Source: Verrucomicrobiia bacterium (lineage in GTDB: Bacteria > Verrucomicrobiota > Verrucomicrobiia > Opitutales > Opitutaceae). From it: 16,560 nucleotides of DNA. Under the pieces are notes generated by a model. That model did not search any database. It saw nothing but the letters and a program-made list of their open reading frames with translations, and was not told the DNA's origin. Each line of letters begins with the position of its first letter. Within the stretch, counting starts at the first letter, position 1. Location: assembly GCA_030424825.1 (NCBI GenBank), contig JAUHWE010000022.1, positions 1 to 16,560 on the forward strand. Reading direction: 5' to 3'. Made by a program: the position numbers and the translations under genes. Of the stretch, positions 5,903 through 10,958 are shown piece after piece.

Positions 5903-5944
5903 TTGATCTAAATCATGATCTTTCAGGCAGTTTTGCTCTAGAAT
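5903..5944 (+). promoter_or_regulatory. FNR/DNR-type activated promoter of the nnrS operon
   Basis: TTGAT-CTAA-ATCAT (5903-5916) matches the FNR/DNR box consensus TTGAT-N4-RTCAA at 9 of 10 fixed positions. A -10 hexamer TAGAAT (5939-5944, 5 of 6 to TATAAT) begins 29.5 bp from the box centre, predicting transcription from about 5951 with the box near -41.5. That is the class II arrangement, in which the box replaces the -35. The nirK promoter has the same spacing. The predicted transcription start lies only about 3 nt before the first possible start codon. Confidence 0.72.
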
Positions 5945-5953
5945 AACGACAGC

Positions 5954-7162
5954 TTGAACAATCAATCAAATAGACTGGCTCATTTGACTGCCGAACCATT
6001 CCGGCTTTTCTTTCCGGTCGGAATGACTTTCGGGCTTCTTGGCGTTATGCTTTGGCCGCTTTTCCATGCGGGCTGGCTGCCCTACTACCCGAATTTTGCC
6101 CACACCCGGCTCATGATCGAAGGATTCGCCGCGTTTTTCATCTTTGGCTTCCTCATGACTGCAGGACCTCGGCTCCTCGGAAGCGAGCCGTTTACCCGGA
6201 ATGCGGTATTCACCGTTTTCATTCTCACCTGCGCCGCTGGCATCGCCCATCTCGGCAATCAAACCGCATTGGGCGATCTCCTGTTTTGTCTGGCAACTAG
6301 CAGCGTCGTTATTCAGGCCGCTCGGGCCTACCGGAATCGATGCGATTGCCCCCCTCCCGGTTTTCCCCTGGCAGCTCTCGGACTGTTGAGCGCCTGTGCG
6401 GGGAGTCTTTTTCTCGCCCTCGTTTCACTTGGATACAATAATCCCTATCTTTTCAGCCTCGGCAAAATACTCCTATTTCAGGGGTTCACTCTACTACCCA
6501 TCATAGGCGTGGGCGCCTTTTTCTTTCCCAAGATACTGGGAGGCAGGAACGCACACGATTTCCCTGAAATGCGCGTCCCCAACCACGAGTGGAAACGGCG
6601 TTTCCTCCATAGCTGTTGGGTCGGTATCGGCTTCTTTGTATCGATTGCCTTCGAGCTTTCTGGATACATCTCTATTGCCTACTGGGTTCGCCTAGGAGCC
6701 CTTGGGGCCTATTGCATTGCGGAAATACCCTTCCAGGAATTTCACCGAGACCGGAGCATTCAGGGTACCCAGCTTCTCATCATCCTCTCCACCATCGCCC
6801 TCGGATTCGCGGGAGCGGCCATATTCCCCGCCAATAAAGTGGCTTGGCTCCATGCTTATTTTCTCGTGGGCCTTACCGGAGTGATTTTTCTCGTTTCAGT
6901 GCGTGTTGTATTCGGGCACAGCGGACGACCGGACCTGATTCTTAAAAGCGTTCGCCTGTCTAAATGGATTACGGGAACGCTCCTTTTTGCCGCGGCAACA
7001 CGGATATTCGCCGATTTCTACCTTTCCGTACAGACCAGCCACTACCTATATGCATCCGCCCTCTGGCTCGCATGCGGATTCGCATGGATGCTATTCGTCG
7101 CTCCGAAGACAATGGCGACAGAACCGGTGGGAGCCCGAACCTGCACTTCCGCGTCCAAATGA
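5954..7162 (+). CDS. nnrS: NnrS family heme-copper membrane protein (nitric oxide response)
   Basis: The 402-residue protein has about eleven or twelve hydrophobic segments and matches NnrS along its length. The N-terminal EPFRLFFPVG precedes the first segment. The family's histidine-containing stretch AHTRLMIEGFAAFFIFGFLM follows near residues 49-68, then the TAGPRLLG turn. NnrS is an inner-membrane heme-copper protein that helps cells withstand NO; its exact chemistry is not settled. It is the first gene of an operon under an FNR/DNR box, overlapping the next gene by 4 bp (ATGA). The start is uncertain: TTG 5954 is the furthest upstream but would be almost leaderless from the predicted promoter. 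TTG 5984, which would begin at TAEPFRLFF, is an alternative. No Shine-Dalgarno is seen for either. Confidence 0.88.
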   Translation: MNNQSNRLAHLTAEPFRLFFPVGMTFGLLGVMLWPLFHAGWLPYYPNFAHTRLMIEGFAAFFIFGFLMTAGPRLLGSEPFTRNAVFTVFILTCAAGIAHLGNQTALGDLLFCLATSSVVIQAARAYRNRCDCPPPGFPLAALGLLSACAGSLFLALVSLGYNNPYLFSLGKILLFQGFTLLPIIGVGAFFFPKILGGRNAHDFPEMRVPNHEWKRRFLHSCWVGIGFFVSIAFELSGYISIAYWVRLGALGAYCIAEIPFQEFHRDRSIQGTQLLIILSTIALGFAGAAIFPANKVAWLHAYFLVGLTGVIFLVSVRVVFGHSGRPDLILKSVRLSKWITGTLLFAAATRIFADFYLSVQTSHYLYASALWLACGFAWMLFVAPKTMATEPVGARTCTSASK

Positions 7163-8007
7163 ATATTGAAATGACAGTAAGGTCCATCAGAAGAATCACT
7201 CTCTTTCTTGGTCTTCTGGCCACTGGCAGTATTTCGTATTCAAATAGCGGTGACTCAATGGCCCTCATCCCAGGAGGCACCTACTCGCCGCTCTACAAGT
7301 CGAAGGTGGAGACCGAACCCGTAAACGTGGATCCGTTTCTCATCGATACGCATCCGGTTACCAACGGGGAATTTCTCGCATTCGTAACCGCAAACCCAAA
7401 TTGGCGGCGGTCTCAGGTAAAGCCCATCTTCGCCGATGAGAGCTACCTGCACCACTGGAGCGATGATCTGGAACTAGGACCCTACGCTGACAAGATCCGC
7501 GACCTCCCGGTGACCAACGTCTCCTGGTTCGCCGCTCGCGCCTATGCTCGCTGGAAAGGTCAACGACTACCCACGGTTTCCGAATGGGAACTGGTCGGAC
7601 TCGCCAGCGAAACTCATCCTGACGGGCGTGAAGAAGCCGGCTACTACAACCGGATTCTCGAATGGTACGGAAGACCCAATCAGCCGATCGAAAAGTGGAA
7701 ACCGGAGACCTTCCGAAACGTCTACGGCGTGTACGGCATCCACGGACTCGTCTGGGAATGGGTTGAAGATTTCAATACCGCATTAGTCACAGGGGAATCC
7801 CGAGGAGACTCCGAACTGGAGAGAAGCCTTTTCTGCGGCAGCGGTTCTGTAAATTCGTCAAACTTCAGGGACTATGCCGCGTTTATGCGTTTCGGCTTCC
7901 GAAGTAGCCTGTCTGCCTCCTACGCCATTCCCAATCTCGGATTTCGCTGCACCAAAGATGCCGACAACTCAAAACGTCAAATCTCCACAGGAGAATCCAA
8001 ACAATGA
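7159..8007 (+). CDS. nirV: NirV-like protein, FGE/SUMF1-fold, periplasmic, without FGE catalytic cysteines
   Basis: The protein has 282 residues from the ATG that overlaps the nnrS stop. A longer in-frame reading from 6964 lies inside nnrS and is rejected. Residues 1-28 form a signal peptide. The rest is a formylglycine-generating-enzyme-fold (SUMF1) domain: ALIPGGTY (35-42), PVTNGEFLAFV (66-76), LPVTNVSWFAARAYARW (116-132), RLPTVSEWE (136-144), GLVWEWVEDF (196-205), FGFRSS (245-250) and NLGFRC (259-264). Aligned by the flanking RS and NLGFRC motifs, the two active-site cysteines of true FGE correspond to Ala240 and Phe245, so sulfatase activation is unlikely. NirV proteins of this fold occur beside nirK in denitrifiers such as Rhodobacter. 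A role in NirK maturation is plausible but unproven. Cys226 and Cys264 remain. The downstream gene overlaps by ATGA. Confidence 0.82.
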   Translation: MNIEMTVRSIRRITLFLGLLATGSISYSNSGDSMALIPGGTYSPLYKSKVETEPVNVDPFLIDTHPVTNGEFLAFVTANPNWRRSQVKPIFADESYLHHWSDDLELGPYADKIRDLPVTNVSWFAARAYARWKGQRLPTVSEWELVGLASETHPDGREEAGYYNRILEWYGRPNQPIEKWKPETFRNVYGVYGIHGLVWEWVEDFNTALVTGESRGDSELERSLFCGSGSVNSSNFRDYAAFMRFGFRSSLSASYAIPNLGFRCTKDADNSKRQISTGESKQ

Positions 8008-8639
8008 AAACCATAATTCACATCATTTCACTCCTATCCGTCGTCCACTCGATTACCATCGCGAACGAGTCCGAAACCCCACCCTGCTGCGATACGTCAC
8101 CCCACCCGCATGAAGCAGCCGGACTTACTCCTGGACAGCCTTCCGCTCACTCAATCTTCAACGTCGAGTCCCTTTGGGAAAACCAGAACGGTGACCGGCT
8201 TCCTCTCAATCAACTGGGAGGGCGACTCCAGGTGGTCGCGATGGTGTACACAAGTTGCCAATACGCCTGCCCCAGAATATTGGCCGATTTAAAATCCATT
8301 CAGTTCGCACTTGAGGAAACCGCGGCCAGCGATCTTGGATTCTGTCTCGTAACGATCGATCCCGAACGGGATACCGTCGAAGCCTACACGGCCTATGCCA
8401 CAAAAAACGGCCTCGACCGCAACCGTTGGACCTTCCTTCGAGGAGGGCCCGGTGACATCCTCGAGCTCGCAAACCTCTTGGGGGTTCGCTACAAGAAGAT
8501 GCCTGACGGAGAGTTTTCCCACTCAAATATCATTACGCTTCTCAAGCCCAATGGCGAGGTCGGATACCAGCTTAACGGCTTGGGAGCCGATCCGGCAGAG
8601 CTGATTACAACTGCCAAACACCTCCTGCATAGGCACTGA
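8004..8639 (+). CDS. SCO1/SenC family copper chaperone
   Basis: The 211-residue protein has an N-terminal signal or anchor (about 1-20) followed by a thioredoxin-fold domain. The copper-binding motif YTSCQYACP gives Cys85 and Cys89 (CxxxC), and the third ligand is His173 in FSHSN, all at family-typical spacing. An extra CC pair (28-29) and several histidines near the N-terminus (34, 36, 49) might add metal contacts. SCO proteins deliver copper to periplasmic or membrane copper enzymes, classically cytochrome oxidase CuA. Here, between nirV and the regulator and facing nirK, NirK is the most likely client. It is translationally coupled to the gene upstream by an ATGA overlap. Confidence 0.92.
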   Translation: MKTIIHIISLLSVVHSITIANESETPPCCDTSPHPHEAAGLTPGQPSAHSIFNVESLWENQNGDRLPLNQLGGRLQVVAMVYTSCQYACPRILADLKSIQFALEETAASDLGFCLVTIDPERDTVEAYTAYATKNGLDRNRWTFLRGGPGDILELANLLGVRYKKMPDGEFSHSNIITLLKPNGEVGYQLNGLGADPAELITTAKHLLHRH

Positions 8640-8726
8640 AGTTCATATTGACGGGACAATTGGAGGTTGCGGAGGAGCCTACAGGTCGACGTAATATGCG
8701 GCCTGTTTCAAGATCCCTCCGCCACC

Positions 8727-9452
8727 ATGTCCCAACCCCGATTCAATTCTCCGCAAACTAACTCACTCAGGGTCGAAGCCATTAAGAGTATCCTCCGCCA
8801 GTCCTCGCTTTTCGCCAAACTCGAAGAATCCGCCCTTGAAACGGTTGTCGATGCTTGCGTCACAAAGCAACTCGCCAAAGGCGAAACGCTTTTCCACGAA
8901 GGCACCGTCTCCCAAGGGTTTTACATCGTGCAAGCCGGAACGATCTGCCTCAACCGATTGAGCCATGAAGGAAAGGAACAAGTAATCAGTGTCTTCAAAC
9001 CCTTCACCTGCTTTGCGGAAGCCACCCTAGGCAGCCTTGAGAACTACCCGGCAAATGCCGTTGCAGTCGAACCGAGCCAAGTAATCCTTGTACGGAAAGA
9101 TCGCTTTCGCTCCATCATTAAATCGAATCCGGATCTTGCCCTCACGATTCTCGCCTCGATGAGCCTTCACCTGAAACACCTCGTTCAAATGATCGACGGG
9201 TTGAAGTTCAAGCATATCGAATCCCGCCTCGCAAATTGGCTCGATAGCAATGCCACCTATTCGAGCGATCAATCGAAAGGCGAAGTCGAGTTGCCCATGA
9301 GCAAAAAGCTGTTGGCCAGTCAACTGGGGGTGACGAGTGAAACCTTGTCACGCGCCTTCGCTCGATTCCGTGATGAAAATATAATTACCGTCAATGGACG
9401 GCACATTTCCATTACCGACGCAAAGGCGCTTTCCACCTATATCAACGAGTAA
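8727..9452 (+). CDS. Crp/Fnr family regulator, DNR-like
   Basis: From ATG 8727 the protein has 241 residues. An open frame continues up to TTG 8667, which would add 20 residues; GGAGG sits immediately before that TTG, too close to serve it, and no good Shine-Dalgarno precedes 8727, so the start is uncertain. The N-terminal half is a cyclic-nucleotide-binding-type beta barrel (FHEGTVSQGFYIVQAG, then the SHEGKEQVISVFKPFTCFAE region), followed by a long dimerisation helix and a winged helix-turn-helix (MSKKLLASQLGVTSETLSRA). The recognition helix carries E-T-L-S-R, the E-x-x-S-R signature of FNR and DNR that reads TTGAT half-sites. The N-terminal cysteine cluster that holds the FNR iron-sulfur centre is absent, so it is more like NO-responsive DNR/NnrR. 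It is the last gene of the nnrS operon and may autoregulate it. Confidence 0.88.
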   Translation: MSQPRFNSPQTNSLRVEAIKSILRQSSLFAKLEESALETVVDACVTKQLAKGETLFHEGTVSQGFYIVQAGTICLNRLSHEGKEQVISVFKPFTCFAEATLGSLENYPANAVAVEPSQVILVRKDRFRSIIKSNPDLALTILASMSLHLKHLVQMIDGLKFKHIESRLANWLDSNATYSSDQSKGEVELPMSKKLLASQLGVTSETLSRAFARFRDENIITVNGRHISITDAKALSTYINE

Positions 9453-9472
9453 TCGCAAGATCTCCAGCTACC

Positions 9473-10888
9473 TCAATGTTCGCTGCGCTTCTGCGTGACG
9501 TCCATCGCGGTCACTTCACCGTAGTCGTTGCCCCAGGTATTCATCACGTAGGTCAAGACGCTAGCGACTTGTGAATCGCCGAGCGCAACCGCGGGCATCA
9601 CCCCATTATAGGTTGTACCGTTCACGGCGATCTCGCCTTGTAGGCCATTGATGACTACACCGATTGCCCGACTCTTGTCTGCGGCAAGGTAATCGGAACC
9701 GGCAAGCGGAGGAAAAGCCCCGGGAATGCCCACTCCTGTAGGCTGATGGCAGGCCAAGCAGTTTTGTGCATAAATGCGTTCACCCATCTCCATACGCTCC
9801 GCTTTCGACAGAGGACCGCTAGAGACCGCGCTTGCGGAATCCCCCGGAATCTGCTGGATGCCTCCCCCTTCAGGCAAGTAGATCCCCTCTTCCTGTTTTC
9901 CTGAATAGACGAGTTTATCCTCCGGACCATCCACCTTTAGCATTCCAATGGCTCCTTTGTTGAAGGCTCGGAATATCGAGTGATCGACAAGAATATAGGT
10001 CCCTGAGGTTTCAAGAGCGAAATCAACAATGGCAGAACCCCCTGCCGGGACCATCGTCGTTTGCACATTGCGATTGATTGCGGAGAGTCCACCCTCGACA
10101 TAAACCGAGTCGAAGATTTCTCCAATGACGTGAAAGCTGGAGACCAAGTTTGGCCCTCCATTGCCTACGTAAAGGCGCACCTTGTCACCTACGCTAGCCG
10201 TGATCGCATTGTCCCCGACCATTGCCCCGACCGATCCATTGAATACAACATAGTCCGGTATCTCCGTAAGGGCTTTTTCCATACTGAAAGGTTGGTTGCC
10301 TTCTTCACCATAAGGGCCTTTCGTGTAAAACTCGCTTTGCATCACGTAGAACTCTTTATCTACCGGAGGCAACCCCTCCTCCGGCTCGACCAAAATGAGG
10401 CCATACATACCGTTTGCGATATGCATGCCCACGGGAGCCGTCGCGCAGTGATAAACATACAGGCCCGGATTTAGGGCGGTGAATGAGAACGTCGACGTTT
10501 TCCCCGGAGCCGTAAACGAAGAGGCCGCTCCACCTCCCGGTCCCGTCACCGCATGCAAATCAATATTGTGCGGCATTTTGCTGGATGGGTGGTTGTTCAA
10601 GTGAAACTCGACGAGGTCCCCTTCCCTAACTCGAATGAAGCTTCCGGGAACGGTGCCTCCAAATGTCCAGAAAGTGTATTCAACGCCATCCGACAAGCGC
10701 CCGTTAAATTCGAGGGTCTCGAGATTGACGACTACCTTCGCCTTGTGACTCCTCACAATGGGAGGTGGAACGTTGGGCGCAGTCGTCAATACCGCTTCTT
10801 CAACGGGTAAACCTTGCCCCAAGCCAAGTGAACGGGATAGGATGATTGAACCGAGCGCAATCGTACGAGTAAAAACGGGTGACTTCAT
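9473..10888 (-). CDS. nirK: Copper-containing nitrite reductase NirK with C-terminal cytochrome c domain
   Basis: The 471-residue periplasmic enzyme reduces nitrite to nitric oxide. A signal peptide covers about 1-26. Two cupredoxin domains follow. Type 1 copper ligands are His107, Cys148, His156 and Met161; type 2 ligands are His112, His147 and His303; catalytic Asp110 and His253 are present. The short Cys-His loop ([17 protein letters not shown]) marks the class II, AniA-like form. After a linker (about 340-365) comes a cytochrome c domain with CLACH (377-381) and probable axial Met431, making it a self-contained electron-entry fusion as in Ralstonia-type NirK. ATG 10888 is chosen over an upstream ATG at 10936 because it begins the signal peptide, has AGGA just upstream, and 10936 would lie upstream of the predicted transcription start. 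It converges on the regulator gene with a 20-bp gap. Confidence 0.96.
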
Positions 10889-10916
10889 AATTCCTGTAGG
10901 TTGAAAAACGATTGCG

Positions 10917-10958
10917 ATGATAGGGCAGCGACGCATTCGTCACCTTGATTTATGTCAA
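10917..10958 (-). promoter_or_regulatory. FNR/DNR-type activated promoter of nirK
   Basis: The box TTGATTTATGTCAA (10945-10958, plus-strand reading) has both TTGAT and GTCAA half-sites intact. On the minus strand a -10 hexamer TATCAT (plus 10917-10922, 5 of 6 to TATAAT) begins 29.5 bp from the box centre, placing the box at about -41.5 from a predicted start near 10910 and leaving a leader of about 22 nt. No -35 hexamer is needed in this class II layout. Confidence 0.78.

Follow-up and report, generated by a model that had tools for sequence, protein, structure and literature searches.

Which promoters and which regulator control the nitrogen-oxide genes of a bacterium from the Verrucomicrobiota? 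The question is raised by a 16,560-nt stretch (contig C331, hereafter the window) of the draft genome of an Opitutaceae bacterium (5.04 Mb in 811 contigs, 89% complete), where nnrS, the nitrite reductase gene nirK and the gene for a Crp/Fnr-type regulator lie close together. An FNR/DNR-type box stands ahead of nnrS and another ahead of nirK. The initial annotation had placed a -10-like hexamer exactly 29.5 bp from the centre of each box, and the coordinates and sequences that we recomputed agree with it (Table 1). Class II activator sites are classically centred near -41.5, and the fixed distance between site centre and -10 hexamer that characterises this class is found here, and two relatives deviate from it by 1 bp. 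We conclude that both sites are very probably DNR-type, FNR-box, class II activator promoters of a single regulon. The window holds no further box with up to two mismatches and a 5/6 hexamer at the same offset, and no box of up to two mismatches lies in positions 8640-8726, directly before the regulator gene.

Across the genome of this bacterium, 4 of 100 oriented TTGAYNNNNRTCAW sites have a hexamer matching five of six TATAAT positions at offset 29.5, compared with 10 such hexamers over the other 51 offsets together, or 0.20 per offset (Poisson P for at least 4, 5e-5). Without the two sites that prompted the analysis the test gives P = 0.017 for at least 2, and a coincidence of box and hexamer by chance is unlikely. 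On contig C322, TTGATTTAGATCAA with TATAGT lies before a gene whose outer-membrane product matches Alginate_exp (the porin gene) and is convincing as a third promoter of the same layout, with a predicted leader of 20 nt, compared with 22 nt for nirK. The match TTGATGGGTATCAT with TATCAT at 29.5 (C394:12529) was rejected as a promoter; it sits where a minus-strand gene begins, pointing away from that gene, and is probably a chance occurrence. Twenty porin loci obtained from tblastn matches were examined for a box of at most one mismatch within 400 bp upstream, and four have one: our own, G023, G017 and one of the two orthologues in genome G006, where the box TTGATCTAGGTCAA is followed by the hexamer TATTCA (3/6). 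The remaining 16 have no box; among these are the three loci from G007 and G009, which belong to the genus but have no regulator.

We then consider the pattern TTGAYNNNNRTCAA-N22-TANNNT in 57 genomes, with a spacer 5 bp shorter (N17) as control. A homologue of the window regulator at E < 1e-25 marks 18 of the 57 as regulator genomes, the next matches lying at about 1e-8. The N22 pattern has 63 matches in 24 genomes: the 18 regulator genomes account for 51 (0.57 per megabase) and the other 39 for 12 (0.09 per megabase), while the 19 matches of the N17 control are divided 3 to 16 (Fisher P 4e-7 for N22 versus N17, split by regulator presence). The three control matches in regulator genomes are an hcp site in G019 that is also an N22 match, the G006 porin box and a site inside an EF-Tu gene; the first two are probably real boxes. 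The offset itself is visible in the relative loci, where hexamers of at least 4/6 stand at 29.5 in 16 of the 80 oriented boxes and in no more than five at any other offset, in a set chosen around regulators and nirK genes and hence not a random sample.

The genes behind these sites fit the same picture. An open reading frame (ORF) of at least 100 aa follows 52 of the 63 N22 sites; 51 of these ORFs were scanned against Pfam, and the nirK of the window was assigned by its domain and family matches. Genes for nitrogen-oxide, copper, respiratory, NO-stress (NO, nitric oxide) or anaerobic functions follow 36 of the 51 sites in regulator genomes and none of the 12 elsewhere, in a grouping made after the matches were seen and with some ORFs possibly mis-framed. 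In this grouping an anaerobic ribonucleotide reductase in G006 counts as a target, but a class II enzyme from a genome lacking the regulator does not. The 36 comprise NirK (3), cytochrome cd1 NirS (1), hybrid-cluster protein (2), ScdA/RIC (1), DUF2249 (8), plastocyanin/azurin-like proteins (7), SCO1/CusF (2), UbiA (4), COX1-like proteins (3, two of them under the Pfam cut-off), cytochrome c (2), Rrf2 (1), globin (1) and anaerobic ribonucleotide reductase (1). At a further six of the 51 sites other families are found (cupin, DUF6448, DGC, nitronate monooxygenase, TonB plug and porin), six have an ORF without a family and three have no ORF. The 12 sites elsewhere precede MFS, HipA, class II ribonucleotide reductase and RapA_C genes, and eight of them have no ORF of 100 aa. 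Among the N17 sites, 12 have an ORF and nine were scanned; L214 and L219 duplicate the genes of the N22 loci L164 and L173, and L224 was left out. The initial annotation proposed an FNR/DNR-type regulon in which box and -10 hexamer keep a fixed distance, and enrichment, co-occurrence with the regulator and nitrogen-oxide targets speak in favour of that proposal. Its confinement of the regulon to 5 kb does not hold, because a third promoter of this layout lies before the porin gene on C322.

Within the genus, the nnrS promoter is conserved. We found nnrS in four of the 57 genomes (split over two contigs in G006), and an upstream box of at most one mismatch in three of the four, namely the genus members (our own, G002 and G006). 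Their promoters have TTGATCT-N2-ATCATG in common, no conserved run upstream of the gene is longer than the box, and the hexamers at 29.5 are TAGAAT (5/6), TAAGGT (3/6) and TACGAT (4/6). In all three, the start codon lies 1-3 nt past the predicted transcription start (window 5951-5956, L276 and L277), the TTG of the window being 3 nt downstream of 5951, which suggests that the nnrS mRNA may be nearly leaderless; a literature search on leaderless mRNA and transcription starts in Verrucomicrobiota found no paper. Above the family cut-off there are 10 nirK genes in nine genomes, seven of them with a box of at most one mismatch within 400 bp upstream. Hexamers can be read at 29.5 in our own genome (5/6), G019 (4/6), G025 (3/6), G030 (5/6) and G036 (3/6).

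The protein encoded at 8727-9452 is probably the factor that works these sites. It combines a cyclic nucleotide monophosphate (cNMP)-binding fold (PF00027, 70.9 bits) with a Crp helix-turn-helix domain (PF13545, 60.7 bits), and its recognition helix reads E-T-L/F-S-R or E-S-L-S-R in 23 of 23 aligned sequences, its own included; we take this E-x-x-S-R type of helix to read TTGAT. In pairwise comparison with solved structures it scores 103 bits against 3fx3, 100 against DNR and 61-63 against FNR entries, so that DNR is the closest named solved regulator. No N-terminal FNR-type Fe-S cysteine cluster is present in the full-length window regulator or in two same-genus orthologues. Those missing cysteines and the kinds of target point to NO or nitrite as the probable signal.

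We infer the following mechanism from these observations. A dimer of the regulator would bind TTGAY-N4-RTCAW centred at -41.5, where it would replace the -35 element and bring RNA polymerase to the -10 hexamer that begins 29.5 bp from the centre; nirK and the gene group nnrS-(NirV-like)-SCO-regulator would thereby be turned on. Because its own gene lies within the activated nnrS group, the regulator probably raises its own level too. It would act like DNR, without FNR-type Fe-S cysteines, most likely answering NO or low oxygen plus nitrite. The same circuit and spacing appear to operate across related Opitutales genomes, with further members that here would include a porin gene.

Several observations weigh against this reading. 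The nnrS gene of G039 has no box within 400 bp upstream, nor do the nirK genes of G009, G044 and one G033 copy; G009 and G044 are without a close regulator. The nirK hexamer is displaced by 1 bp in G017 (TATGAT at 28.5) and in the G033 copy C26 (TAGACT at 30.5), and hexamers are poor (3/6 each) at nnrS of G002 (TAAGGT) and at nirK of G025 (TAACCT) and G036 (GAGAGT), the last genome having a nirK box yet no regulator match. Three of the 18 regulator genomes (G002, G020 and G029) have no exact N22 match; the nnrS box of G002 ends in T. At the porin loci, a TA hexamer at 29.5 is found only in our own and one G006 copy. A one-mismatch search of our own genome gives 30 matches versus 27 for a reversed control, so no wider regulon stands out there and we claim no further targets. 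Regarding the regulator, most of the distant homologues are local matches whose N-termini are cut in the alignment, and His139, the heme ligand of DNR in the available text of PMC8510549, aligns with Lys150, with His148 and His151 flanking. Finally, with the draft 89% complete in 811 contigs, a second Crp/Fnr gene may be missing from it.

The heme histidine that is not kept in place speaks for the alternative that survives best, in which the promoters are the same and the regulator answers oxygen or redox state instead of NO or nitrite. The linked targets, which extend to oxidase-like genes and an anaerobic ribonucleotide reductase, are also in keeping with it. We nevertheless consider an oxygen or redox signal rather unlikely, since the window protein and its two same-genus orthologues have no FNR-type N-terminal cysteine cluster and many of the linked genes concern nitrite, NO or NO stress. 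The gaps in the draft leave room for another Crp/Fnr protein to work the boxes, with the neighbouring regulator merely hitchhiking; G036 has its box without a regulator match, and G006 encodes a second Crp/Fnr protein, 32% identical. Such a substitution is improbable, since the window regulator is the sole HTH_Crp_2 match found in the draft (a PF00027 search gave two further proteins, neither of them an HTH_Crp_2 match) and the site pattern across genomes follows its homologues. That the boxes are operators for repression is very improbable: a protein bound there would overlap the -35 region and could also block polymerase, but class II activators classically bind with their site centred near -41.5, and we favour activation because it needs the fixed -10 distance that repression does not demand. 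Accidental palindromes and hexamers in AT-rich intergenic DNA, an origin suggested by the 100 oriented box-like sites of our own genome, many within coding sequence, and by the one-mismatch search without signal, are strongly disfavoured and barely credible given the offset peak, the co-occurrence, the target types and the conserved nnrS and nirK promoters.

From left to right, the window encodes a class I aldolase, a lipase, NnrS, an FGE-sulfatase-domain protein, SCO1 and the Crp/Fnr regulator, with nirK convergent to them (Table 1). The FGE-sulfatase-domain protein is presumably the nirK neighbour that goes by the name NirV. For nirK, the ATG at 10888 is more likely to be the start than the ORF-list start at 10936, because AGGA precedes it and the leader is then 22 nt. 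The NirK core matches TIGR02376 at 353.7 bits, above the family cut-off, and the protein aligns over nearly its full length with 2zoo (656 bits) and 3ziy (618 bits). The start of the regulator at ATG 8727, as initially annotated, is shared by both same-genus orthologues and is retained for that reason. Among named relatives, two Opitutales drafts are nearest, with regulators 75-76% identical to that of the window. Longest-ORF gene calling missed regulators in several loci, and tblastn was used for the regulator alignment instead. In relatives, nirK adjoins a NirV-like gene in loci L144, L147, L152 and L155, the last three also with SCO, and the homologue called next before the G002 regulator gene is nnrS; the window thus unites both groups.

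Table 1 Promoter elements and genes of the window.
Feature	Position	Strand	Details
FNR/DNR-type box TTGATCTAAATCAT, nnrS operon	5903-5916	+	1 mismatch to TTGAT-N4-ATCAA over 10 positions
-10-like hexamer TAGAAT, nnrS	5939-5944	+	starts 29.5 bp from box centre; 5/6 vs TATAAT
Predicted transcription start, nnrS	5951	+	from geometry, box centred at -41.5
nnrS (NnrS)	5954-7162	+	PF05940, 109 bits; TTG start
FGE-sulfatase-domain protein gene	7159-8007	+	start 7159 chosen, overlapping nnrS stop; alternative 7171
SCO1/SenC copper protein gene	8004-8639	+	domain match
Crp/Fnr regulator gene, DNR-like, E-T-L-S-R recognition helix	8727-9452	+	domain matches, alignment
nirK, three-domain copper nitrite reductase with C-terminal cytochrome c	9473-10888	-	start chosen from sequence
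Predicted transcription start, nirK	10910	-	from geometry
-10-like hexamer TATCAT, nirK	10922-10917	-	starts 29.5 bp from box centre; 5/6 vs TATAAT
FNR/DNR-type box TTGACATAAATCAA, then GG, nirK	10958-10945	-	1 mismatch to TTGAT-N4-ATCAA over 10 positions

In G006, a 707-aa protein (L132:3863-5986) lies behind a box with TACAAT at 29.5; its residues 166-707 match cd1 NirS (903 bits), and a 105-bit match links residues 12-150 to the cytochrome tail found in copper nitrite reductases of the three-domain type. A two-cytochrome architecture, the C1-C2-NirS reading frame, is apparently absent outside Chloroflexi in the available text of PMC8756737; with its extra N-terminal cytochrome c domain, the G006 NirS may be of a comparable architecture. 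The same G006 locus has an anaerobic ribonucleotide reductase gene (L132:7565-9886) with a box and TATATT at 29.5, and near it the second Crp/Fnr gene (L132:10714-11430). COX1-like proteins of about 480 aa (L194:2420-3856, L206:233-1672 and L140:4328-5770) are encoded near UbiA genes with boxes of the same layout, the two genes being directly divergent in G017 and G039. They retain VH, GH and HYH motifs, and of the HH pair of a CcoN-like protein one histidine is left in G030 and none in G017 and G039; possibly they represent an unusual NO reductase. Our own genome encodes, on contig C766 (L191:1375-2904), a CcoN-like protein without the histidines aligned to those of a CcoN-like relative.

Among known systems, E. 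coli FNR class II promoters have the site core TTGATnnnnATCAA and the -41.5 position in common with the window, whose regulator differs from FNR in having no N-terminal cysteine cluster. The DNR regulon of Pseudomonas and beta-proteobacteria, as presented in the available part of PMC1274295, is alike in its CTTGATnnnnATCAAG consensus site, in a regulator group without Fe-S cysteines and in nirK and nnrS as targets. It differs from the window system in host, which is verrucomicrobial here, in the heme histidine, here out of place, in the regulator gene directly downstream of the nnrS genes, and in the linked porin, azurin-like and DUF2249 genes. A further difference is that no NorB was found in our own draft, where PF00115 matched only a CtaD and a CcoN-like protein. 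NnrR of alpha-proteobacteria also activates nirK and nnrS, but its site in that part of PMC1274295 is TTGcgnnnncgCAA, whereas the window sites have TTGAT/C half-sites (TTGAY-N4-RTCAW) and do not show the NnrR form. The string 'Verrucomicrob' has no occurrence in the available text of the regulon papers PMC1274295 and PMC8510549, and no verrucomicrobial nitrogen-oxide regulon is described in titles or abstract openings among the matches listed. The system thus adds a nitrogen-oxide regulon that can be tested, complete with site model and target list, for a phylum unmentioned in those texts, and because the spacing is fixed, targets in Opitutales drafts are simple to predict. One promoter layout lies ahead of a cytochrome-fused NirK in our own genome and a cytochrome-fused NirS in the same-genus G006. 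We tentatively suggest, as a possibility short of probable, a verrucomicrobial lineage of NO-responsive activators apart from DNR and NnrR, with a rigid -41.5 grammar, a nitrite reductase swapped between relatives and an almost leaderless nnrS. This kind of switch is well known in other bacteria; its lineage, its extra targets and some of its details look new.

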